Assembly (NCBI RefSeq): GCF_000715505.1
Contig: NZ_JHEH01000003.1
Span: 1 to 64,000 of the forward strand
Length of the DNA stretch: 64,000 nt
Origin: Thioclava dalianensis
Lineage (GTDB): Bacteria > Pseudomonadota > Alphaproteobacteria > Rhodobacterales > Rhodobacteraceae
Direction: 5' to 3'
Below the pieces are notes generated by a model. That model was not told where the DNA came from, did not search any database, and saw only the letters and a program-made list of their open reading frames with translations. The position numbers were made by a program, and so were the translations under genes. Position 1 is the first letter of the stretch. The number at the start of each line of letters is the position of its first letter. Below, in pieces: positions 9,629 to 12,852 of the stretch.

Positions 9629-10774
9629 ATGCTGACCTCTTCCGATATTGCTGAACTCACCGCTTTGCGGCGCGATCTGCATCGCCGCCCGGATCTGTCG
9701 GGGCGCGAGGCTGCGACCGCCGAGGTGATCTTGGCCGCCCTGCGCGCGCTGTCGCCCAATCTCGTGCTCACGGGTCTGGGCGGTCACGGTCTGGCGGCGC
9801 TGTTTGACAGCGGCACGCCCGGTCCAACGGTGCTGTTTCGCGCCGAGTTGGACGGGCTGCCGATCCCCGAGCGCTCGGACAACGCGTGGCGCTCGCAGAT
9901 CGACGGGGCGGGGCATCTCTGCGGCCATGACGGGCATATGGCGATGCTGCTGGGCCTTGGGCGCGTGCTCTCGCGCAAGCCTCCGGCCACCGGGCGCGTG
10001 GCCCTCCTCTTCCAGCCCGCAGAAGAAATAGGCACCGGCGCGCGCGCCGTGGTCGATGATCCGGCCTTCACCCGTATCGCTCCGGATTTCGCCTTTGCGA
10101 TCCATAACTTGCCGGGCCTGCCGCGTGGCCATGTCGCGACCCGGACGGGGCTGATGAATTGCGCCTCGATGGGGCTTGCGATCCATCTTGAGGGCAAGAC
10201 CGCCCATGCCGCGATGCCACAAGACGGGGTCTCGCCCGGCCCTGCGGTCGCCGCCCTGATCAATGCTCTGCCCGCGCTGGGTCCGGGTGGGGTGCTTGAC
10301 GATAGGTTCCGGCTCGCGACCCTCACCCATGCCCAACTTGGCGCGCCCACGTTCGGCGTGGCCCCCGGTGCGGGGCTCGTGCATGTGACCCTGCGCGCGG
10401 CGCGCGATGCGGCATTGGCAGACCTAGAGGCGCAGGCCCGCGCCTTGGCCGCGCGGGAGGCAGAGCGCTTCGGGCTGCAGCTTCGGATCGAGACCTGCGA
10501 CCCGTTCGCCGCCTCAGTCAATGCAGCCGAAGCGGTGGAAATTGCCCGCAGCGCGCTTGATCACCTCAAGATCCCGCATTCGGAGACGGGTGTGCCGATG
10601 TATGCCTCGGAGGATTTCGGGCTGTTTGGCCGCGATGCGGTCTCGGCGATGCTCTGCCTTGGTGCCGGAGAAACCCAGCCCGCGCTGCACAATCCCGATT
10701 ACGATTTTCCCGACGCCCTGATTCCGGTGGGCGTTGCGATCTTCGCACAGATCGCGCGGGACATTCTGGGCTGA
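9629..10774 (+). CDS. M20 family metallo-amidohydrolase (hippurate/N-acyl amino acid hydrolase type)
   Basis: A 381-residue cytosolic enzyme of the M20D carboxypeptidase/amidohydrolase group, predicted to remove acyl groups from N-acylated amino acids. Metal-binding motifs are present in order: LRRDLHRRPDLSG near the N-terminus, HLCGHDGHMAMLL around residue 92, PAEEIGTGA around 131, and the C-terminal SEDFG. The segment KTAHAAMPQDGVSPG marks the dimerisation/lid domain. The exact substrate cannot be read from sequence. It may be expressed separately from the one-carbon cluster because a hairpin precedes it. Confidence 0.88.
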   Translation: MLTSSDIAELTALRRDLHRRPDLSGREAATAEVILAALRALSPNLVLTGLGGHGLAALFDSGTPGPTVLFRAELDGLPIPERSDNAWRSQIDGAGHLCGHDGHMAMLLGLGRVLSRKPPATGRVALLFQPAEEIGTGARAVVDDPAFTRIAPDFAFAIHNLPGLPRGHVATRTGLMNCASMGLAIHLEGKTAHAAMPQDGVSPGPAVAALINALPALGPGGVLDDRFRLATLTHAQLGAPTFGVAPGAGLVHVTLRAARDAALADLEAQARALAAREAERFGLQLRIETCDPFAASVNAAEAVEIARSALDHLKIPHSETGVPMYASEDFGLFGRDAVSAMLCLGAGETQPALHNPDYDFPDALIPVGVAIFAQIARDILG

Positions 10775-11080
10775 CGCGGGTGCGCGCCGCGCCTGCCCCT
10801 GCGTCGTTCGCCCCCGTGATTCTCACGCGATGCCAAGCAGCGTTGAGCGGGGCGCAGGCAGGGGCCGCACGCGCCCGCCCCACGCCCCAAAGCTGCGCGA
10901 TGCGCAAGCCTCAGAGGCAGAATTTTCCGGCCTGAGACGCACATTCCACAGCTCGGATTTTGACCGCTCTATAAAGCGTGTTTTTTCAAGGGCCGAGCTA
11001 CCATATCTTGGATCAAGTCGAAAATTTAGACTTTTAGGACAATCCTCTACTGGCCCTTCTTAACGTGGATGGCGTAAAGT
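10775..11080. other. Gene-free region upstream of the hairpin RNA
   Basis: No coding frame here has convincing protein character. The last 130 bases become A+T-rich (TTTTTTCAAG around 10981, AAAATTTAGACTTTTAGGAC around 11022), which would suit a promoter for the structured element that follows. TTGGAT near 11008 with CTTTTA about 17 bases later is the best -35/-10 guess. A small AGGA/TCCT hairpin sits near 11037. Confidence 0.4.
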
Positions 11081-11175
11081 CCGGGTCTGAACCTGGGAAA
11101 GCGCACTGCCATGCGCTTCAACTGTCTGCCGGACGAGGCGGGCTTTGTGACTGCCATCACGGAGCCTGCCCGTCC
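11081..11175 (+). ncRNA. Putative structured RNA: three tandem hairpins, two with the same loop
   Basis: Three hairpins follow one another in a 718-base gap. Hairpin 1 is CCGGGT/ACCTGG with a CTGA loop (11081-11096). Hairpin 2 is AAGCGCA/TGCGCTT with loop CTGCCA (11099-11118). Hairpin 3 is a stem of 19 pairs (11131-11150 with 11157-11175) with one bulged A at 11136 and three G-T pairs, again with loop CTGCCA. In both cases the loop is closed by A-U, giving the same ACTGCCAT tip. The compensating G-T pairs suggest RNA structure. I cannot match it to a known family; it could be an sRNA or a long 5' leader. The direction is assumed. Confidence 0.5.
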
Positions 11176-11492
11176 TTGACCTCTCCGGGAAGCCTACCCT
11201 CAGAAAATAATCTATAATTAGCGATATTTATCAGTACCTTGTTGTTCAAAGTTAATTCACCTCTCCGCCCCCAAACACGCTCCACCCCCAGTCAGTTTTC
11301 GCGCACCTCACGTGGCGCGACCTAAGCCCGCAGGGCCGCGTGCCCGGCTCGACATGCCGGGATGGGCACGTTATGAATTTGGCTCGGACGCGGCGGTCTT
11401 GCACTGCTCTTTGTAAAATGGCGGCTCAGCCTAAGGCGGGGCTGCGCCAAACAGACCGGGCGTGGGCCCGGCACGGGCCGGGAGGGGCGCGC
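11176..11492. other. Gene-free region downstream of the hairpin RNA
   Basis: No gene was recognised. An A+T-rich stretch (AAAATAATCTATAATTAGCG, near 11205-11224) contains TATAAT and may hold the promoter of the small membrane protein and VWA genes, but no good -35 lies at the right distance. The end has a GGAGGGG ribosome binding site for the next gene. Confidence 0.4.
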
Positions 11493-11660
11493 ATGTATGT
11501 TCTCGCAGGGATCGTGATCGGCGCCATCTGGGGCGACTGGCGCGCGCGCAAGCGGCAGGGCAACGGGCTTGATCGGGCGCAATATGCCGCCGTTCACGCC
11601 ATTGGCCTTGCGCTGATCGGGCTCTTGGTCACCATCTTGATCAACCGCGCCTACGCGTGA
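11493..11660 (+). CDS. Small membrane protein of unknown function
   Basis: A 55-residue protein with two predicted membrane segments, about residues 2-12 (YVLAGIVIGAIWG) and 34-51 (AIGLALIGLLVTILI), joined by a basic, polar loop (DWRARKRQGNGLDRAQ). It starts at an ATG preceded by GGAGG at the right spacing, which supports it as real. I do not recognise a function. Similar tiny proteins in Rhodobacteraceae are sometimes labelled apolipoprotein acyltransferase, but it is far too short to be that enzyme. It lies 10 bases before the VWA gene and is probably co-transcribed. Confidence 0.65.
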   Translation: MYVLAGIVIGAIWGDWRARKRQGNGLDRAQYAAVHAIGLALIGLLVTILINRAYA

Positions 11661-11670
11661 GGGCGGGGCA

Positions 11671-12852
11671 ATGTTCCTGCCCTTCTTCCACGCTCTGCGC
11701 CAAGCCGGTATCCCCGTCAGCCTGCGCGAATATCTAACCTTTCTCGAAGGGTTGGCCGCAGGGCTCTGTCGCTACGACATCGAATCCTTCTACATTTTCG
11801 CGCGCACCAGCATGGTCAAGGACGAGCGCTTTCTCGACCGGTTTGACCGCGCGTTTTCGCAAGCCTTCTCGGGGCTTGAGGCGATCAGCACCGAGGATAT
11901 GCTTGAGGCCGTCGACCTTCCCGACGATTGGCTGCGCGACGCGCTGGAAAAGCACCTCAGCCCCGAGGAAAAGGCCCAGATCGAGGCTTTGGGCGGGTTC
12001 GACGCGTTGATGGATACGCTTCGCAAACGGCTCGAAGAGCAGAAAGGTCGCCATCAGGGCGGCTCGAAATGGGTGGGAACGGGCGGCACCTCGCCCTTCG
12101 GCGCCTATGGCTACAACCCCGAGGGCGTGCGGATCGGCCAGCACGAAAGCCGCCACCAGCGCGCGGTGAAGGTCTGGGACAAGCGCGAATTTCGCGATTT
12201 CGACGAGAGCGTGGAGCTTGGCACGCGCAACATCAAGCTCGCGCTCAAGCGACTGCGGCAGTGGGCGCGCCACGGCGCGGCGGAGGAGCTGGACCTGCCC
12301 GGCACGATCCGTGCCAGCGCGGAGGCAGGCTATATCGACGTCAAGACCCGTCCCGAGCGGCGCAACGCGGTGAAGGTAGTGCTGTTTCTCGATGTCGGCG
12401 GCTCGATGGATGCCCATGTGAAACTGGTCGAAGAGCTGTTTTCCGCAGCCCGGGCCGAGTTCAAACATCTCGAGCACTGGTATTTCCACAACTGCCTCTA
12501 TGAGGGCGTATGGAAATCGAACCGCAGGCGTTGGGATGATGTGACGCCGACTTGGGACGTACTCCATCGTTACGGCGCTGATTACAAATGCATTTTTGTG
12601 GGCGACGCTTCCATGAGCCCCTATGAGATCACCCATCGCGGCGGCGCTAATGAGCATTGGAATGAGGAGCCGGGCCATCTCTGGCTGACCCGCGCCCGCG
12701 AGCATTGGCCCGATCACACATGGCTCAATCCGCTGCCCGAGCGGGTCTGGGATTACACCTCCTCCATCGGCCTGATCCGCGAGATTTTCGAGAACCGGAT
12801 GCATCCGCTCACGCTGGAAGGGATCACGGCTGCAATGAAGGAATTGGGATGA
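11671..12852 (+). CDS. VWA (CoxE-like) domain protein
   Basis: A 393-residue soluble protein of the CoxE/YgaD-like VWA family. The C-terminal half carries the VWA fold, starting AVKVVLFLDVGGSMDAHVK at about residue 236, where the metal-site motif DxSxS reads DVGGS, with the first Ser replaced by Gly. The N-terminal half (LREYLTFLEGL...) resembles the helical part of CoxE-type proteins that work with a MoxR AAA ATPase in cofactor insertion or chaperoning. No MoxR gene is adjacent in this window. The segment RRWDDVTPTWDVLHRYG is typical of the group. Role unknown. Confidence 0.8.
   Translation: MFLPFFHALRQAGIPVSLREYLTFLEGLAAGLCRYDIESFYIFARTSMVKDERFLDRFDRAFSQAFSGLEAISTEDMLEAVDLPDDWLRDALEKHLSPEEKAQIEALGGFDALMDTLRKRLEEQKGRHQGGSKWVGTGGTSPFGAYGYNPEGVRIGQHESRHQRAVKVWDKREFRDFDESVELGTRNIKLALKRLRQWARHGAAEELDLPGTIRASAEAGYIDVKTRPERRNAVKVVLFLDVGGSMDAHVKLVEELFSAARAEFKHLEHWYFHNCLYEGVWKSNRRRWDDVTPTWDVLHRYGADYKCIFVGDASMSPYEITHRGGANEHWNEEPGHLWLTRAREHWPDHTWLNPLPERVWDYTSSIGLIREIFENRMHPLTLEGITAAMKELG

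Follow-up and report, generated by a model that had tools for sequence, protein, structure and literature searches.

The window, a stretch of 64,000 nucleotides from contig NZ_JHEH01000003.1 of Thioclava dalianensis, contains a long gap downstream of an M20 open reading frame, in which we recognize the following features:

10775-11492: intergenic gap of 718 bases, between the M20 open reading frame (ending at 10774) and the next open reading frame (ATG at 11493)
11081-11097, + strand: hairpin 1, region CCGGGTC-TGA-ACCTGGG, from the fold
11094-11101, + strand: putative ribosome-binding site region TGGGAAAG of a lost gene, with the presumed Shine-Dalgarno bases
11099-11118, + strand: hairpin 2, AAGCGCA-CTGCCA-TGCGCTT, with a 7-bp stem and the loop CTGCCA at 11106-11111
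11111-11113, + strand: start codon ATG inside hairpin 2
11111-11179, + strand: 22-codon open reading frame, MRFNCLPDEAGFVTAITEPARP followed by a stop, N-terminal remnant of a DUF2927 protein
11123-11131, + strand: linker TGTCTGCCG between hairpins 2 and 3, containing a third CTGCC
11131-11175, + strand: hairpin 3, GGACG-(A)-GGCGGGCTTTGTGA-CTGCCA-TCACGGAGCCTGCC-CGTCC, with the loop at 11151-11156
11176-11341, no strand assigned: filler of 166 bp, partly A+T-rich, standing in for about 1.29 kb of gene
11339-11398, + strand: 3' relict of the DUF2927 gene (RARLDMPGWARYEFGSDAAV)

An earlier note on this DNA had described the gap as gene-free and as holding three consecutive hairpins, the second and third with an identical loop. 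Both the sequence and the fold agree with it on the 718 bases, on the positions of the hairpins, on their 7-bp and 19-bp stems and on the two CTGCCA loops, each of which is closed by an A-U pair. The stem of hairpin 3 reaches 19 bp if G-U pairs are counted and has one bulge, and a 14-bp core of it is conserved with covariation. Folding of 11060-11205 yielded -62.8 kcal/mol on the + strand (z -3.54; 1 of 200 shuffles was equally good) as against a z of -1.37 on the - strand. All three hairpins are present in the window, but hairpin 1 does not have the same structure in relatives, whose alignment shows a different sequence there, often GUGCC...GGCAC. The arrangement as a whole is uncommon, as just two pairs of hairpins with a shared hexaloop within 60 nt (stems of at least 5 Watson-Crick pairs) were found in 1.2 Mb of the Thioclava relative G003, one of them being the present element. 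The element is single copy per genome and not a dispersed repeat; no consensus sigma-70 promoter was found around it, and no tRNA or tmRNA. Scans against Rfam returned nothing relevant, whether at the gathering threshold or at relaxed ones, so that the note's failure to match the arrangement to any named riboswitch, sRNA or leader is supported at the level of Rfam.

A DNA search of 61 genomes recovered homologues of 11090-11178 from five congeners only. In these the segment comprises the ribosome-binding site, the start codon and the first ~22 codons of a gene for a DUF2927 lipoprotein of ~490 aa (PF11150; domain match E 1.6e-46), which follows immediately on the same M20 gene that precedes the gap in the window. 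An orthologue of this gene is found in all other congeners except G012, and is missing from the T. dalianensis genome apart from a distant paralogue. The 22-codon frame of the window shows 59-64% identity to codons 1-22 of three orthologues (L007, L008 and L009), and the block AACCTGGGA is conserved immediately upstream of the ATG of relatives. DNA homology between the window and L007 ends at 11175 and restarts at 11342 (L007 1565 and 2860); the 3' relict beyond, corresponding to 20 C-terminal codons, is 80% identical to codons 453-472 of L007 (E 7e-7). Codons ~23-452, about 1.3 kb, are thereby absent and replaced by the 166 bp. As both ends of the gene remain while its middle has been replaced, the DUF2927 gene was deleted and its leader stayed behind; judged by its sequence, the copy in the window is a relict of the deleted gene, and in T. 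dalianensis the element is probably without function or is drifting. The filler starts precisely where hairpin 3 ends and carries the near-repeats TTGACCTCTCCG and TTCACCTCTCCG (at 11176 and 11256). The gap is thus more than the gene-free stretch of the note, as it encloses both ends of a deleted gene, with the start codon in hairpin 2; the note's structured RNA candidate is not a free-standing sRNA but, in relatives, the 5' leader and first codons of the DUF2927 lipoprotein gene.

Besides the Thioclava relatives, a scan of public genomes uncovered the same gene start in Rhodobacter viridis, R. aestuarii, R. sp. TJ_12, R. capsulatus and several MAGs. Across 17 distinct sequences 97.7% of the cells are paired and 13 of the 19 pairs have changed on both sides, with a covariation score of 0.453 versus 0.192 when shuffled and at most 0.126 for slid structures; this alignment was built with a covariance model and leans to the model. 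An alignment of ten sequences made by MAFFT without structure information gave 98.9% of cells pairing, 8 pairs with double changes, and a covariation of 0.512, as against 0.220 after shuffling and no more than 0.11 with the structure slid; the first MAFFT alignment, in which short stems were misaligned, was excluded from counting. Covariation in hairpin 2 is weak, with just one pair varying. In some lineages the 14-bp stem of hairpin 3 is reduced to 11 bp by matching in-frame losses of 3 nt on both arms, that is one codon per arm. G-U cells number 15 in the alignment versus 2 A-C cells, indicating that the paired RNA strand is the coding (+) strand, as inferred in the note. Comparative sequence evidence of this kind identifies the two-hairpin element as a real, evolutionarily conserved RNA structure.

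The note had proposed to check whether the stems covary with both loops constant, and this holds for the stems and largely for the loops. The CUGCCA loop of hairpin 2 is invariant in the 17 distinct sequences, and the linker TGTCTGCCG is near-constant among relatives in the covariance-model alignment, silent positions included. Hairpin 3 has CUGCCA in 13 of the 17 and another loop in the remaining four, namely CUGCCC in R. capsulatus and unrelated loops in L018, L050 and L084; L019 and L020, aligned by eye, likewise have a hairpin at this position with another loop. L018, L019, L020, L050 and L084 have a hairpin at the hairpin-3 position even when it is unrelated in both sequence and loop. The comparison suggests that the position of hairpin 3 matters more than its loop.

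A covariance-model search of 296 genomes, a sample of about one genome per genus that need not contain Rhodobacter, returned the complete element from Thioclava, UBA6197 and a single other DUF2927 gene only; the DUF2927 genes of other genera are mostly without such a leader. Within Thioclava, the gene persists in a T. sediminum-type clade (L012-L016), where hairpin 2 is degraded and a CUGCCA hairpin 3 is missing, and T. atlantica (L017) is devoid of the element. These losses, together with the other hairpin-3 loops of L018, L019/L020, L050 and L084, imply that the element is dispensable. The exact 14-mer of hairpin 2 has 8 matches among the order's other genomes, no excess over a reversed-pattern control. 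A wider regulon of CUGCCA hairpins was also considered and rejected, since 1.2 Mb of G003 contain 3 with a stem of at least 5 against 1.0 expected, and none with a stem of at least 7. We found no mention of DUF2927 in the literature searched, nor any paper covering both Thioclava and small RNA.

In relatives, hairpin 2 is predicted to fold the start codon into a stem with the CUGCCA loop, the A of the AUG lying in the loop and the UG in the stem. The predicted folds of all 21 sequences have the G of the AUG paired to at least 96%, and in L018-L020 the predicted stem reaches into the GGGGGAA Shine-Dalgarno sequence; occlusion of the latter applies only to some lineages, as the fold model leaves part of it free in several species. 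The pairing of this G throughout and the extended stem of L018-L020 point to translation initiation as the step that is controlled. Hairpin 3 would form within the first ~20 codons, mostly with the same CUGCCA loop, starting some 20-27 nt past the A of the AUG. As this is beyond the usual edge of an initiating ribosome, it would more likely serve as a second binding site than as a direct block. Consistent placement where translation of a homologous gene begins, compensatory covariation and, by prediction, occlusion of the start codon are all as found in cis-acting leaders. Hence the hairpin overlapping the AUG and adjoining or covering the Shine-Dalgarno sequence, and its covariation-conserved structure, are reminiscent of start-codon- or Shine-Dalgarno-sequestering translational operators; unlike these, the present element repeats its loop in a second hairpin within the coding region and comes without an Rfam family or a known ligand, protein or temperature response. 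The element is the 5' end of a DUF2927 (PF11150) gene, though its leader sets it apart from most such genes in other genera, and in the window the gene itself is gone. Further upstream in relatives, conserved blocks GGCAACAATAAGGCGTG, CACTATATCTGG and ATTTACTGGTCGAAGTTAA are seen ~60-180 nt before the DUF2927 ATG (L007-L053), and the upstream alignment shows GGCAACAATAAGGCGTG, CACTATATCTGG and ATTTACTGG as conserved; GGCAACAATAAGGCGTG, CACTATATCTGG and ATTTACTGGTCGAAGTTAA are probably promoter and regulator sites.

Based on these observations we consider it fairly likely that the locus preserves a conserved cis-acting RNA element of the DUF2927 lipoprotein translation start, left in T. dalianensis after deletion of the gene. 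The element would be an uncatalogued cis-regulatory RNA of a known general kind, whose most likely function in relatives is translational control by masking of the start codon. It would limit translation initiation, and its CUGCCA loops may be read by a trans-acting factor, either an RNA-binding protein or a base-pairing sRNA, that switches it. A target common to both loops, as the note had supposed, is possible.

One candidate for such a factor is UpsM, the sRNA of the dcw/mraZ leader. The covariance-model matches outside DUF2927 include, in several genera, the antisense of the UpsM terminator hairpin, whose loop GUGGCAGC is complementary to CUGCCA and does not vary among 16 Thioclava or any of the Rhodobacter tested. 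In this scheme 5'-GUGGCAGC-3' would form a kissing contact with 5'-(G)CUGCCA(C)-3' across the start codon, thereby blocking translation, with the loops, and the CUGCCG of the linker, as its target. UpsM is the major Hfq-bound sRNA of R. sphaeroides that takes most of the RNA-bound Hfq in exponential phase (PMC8307010), and its mRNA targets were unidentified as of a 2016 paper (PMC5089854). We nevertheless regard this pairing as unlikely: the complementarity was found after the fact, the UpsM loop is conserved equally in genera without the element, and the hairpin-3 loop of R. capsulatus has become CUGCCC with UpsM unchanged. Furthermore, when 954 start regions of G003 are ordered by raw duplex energy with the UpsM loop, that of the DUF2927 gene comes only 92nd, so that a partnership with UpsM is offered as a hypothesis. 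The two loci are not homologous: the dcw 5' leader of Rhodobacteraceae (PMC5089854) resembles the element in its strong G+C hairpin, which has a loop reverse-complementary to CUGCCA, but this hairpin is a terminator, belongs to a different locus (mraZ) and lies in the opposite sense. In the UpsM terminators upstream of mraZ (L085, L103-L118) the loop GUGGCAGC is invariant across genera, and the stem varies with pairing kept. A broader proposal, which we hold to be doubtful though less so, is that of a new two-hairpin translational operator, with repeated CUGCCA loops, one round the start codon and one in the coding region, read jointly by one trans-acting RNA or protein, possibly UpsM, that would link the lipoprotein to cell-division control.

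The ~25 aa N-terminal extension ahead of the lipoprotein signal peptide, with its conserved MRxxCLP start and coding indels in multiples of three, could be taken for a leader peptide or attenuator, in which translating MR..CLP across hairpin 3 would regulate expression downstream; this is improbable, as in relatives the frame runs on into the lipoprotein without a stop or a terminator U-run, and the codons under hairpin 3 are variable. That the element is still fully paired in the window, with the z-score given above, despite the loss of its gene would suit a free-standing trans-acting sRNA, possibly one that arose in T. dalianensis after that loss. However, the gene loss may simply be recent, all homologues of the element are gene starts, and no intrinsic terminator-like site, which an sRNA would be expected to have as its own, was found in 10700-11700, making this quite improbable. 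Finally, although hairpin 3 is coding and palindromes are able to self-correct, it is very improbable that the pairing reflects coding constraint, or template switching that maintains a DNA palindrome, with no RNA function, because the excess of G-U over A-C cells is a strand asymmetry expected of RNA and not of DNA, paired codons change together under a constant loop, and hairpin 2 is partly untranslated.

Our preferred reading, a cis-acting element at the DUF2927 translation start, means that the genetically tractable Rhodobacter capsulatus has, where a gene of unknown function begins, an RNA element that covaries strongly and is uncatalogued. There it offers a ready test case for translational control, as well as a candidate target mRNA for the group's most abundant Hfq-bound sRNA. 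The copy in T. dalianensis illustrates that a conserved RNA structure can survive its gene and resemble an orphan sRNA.
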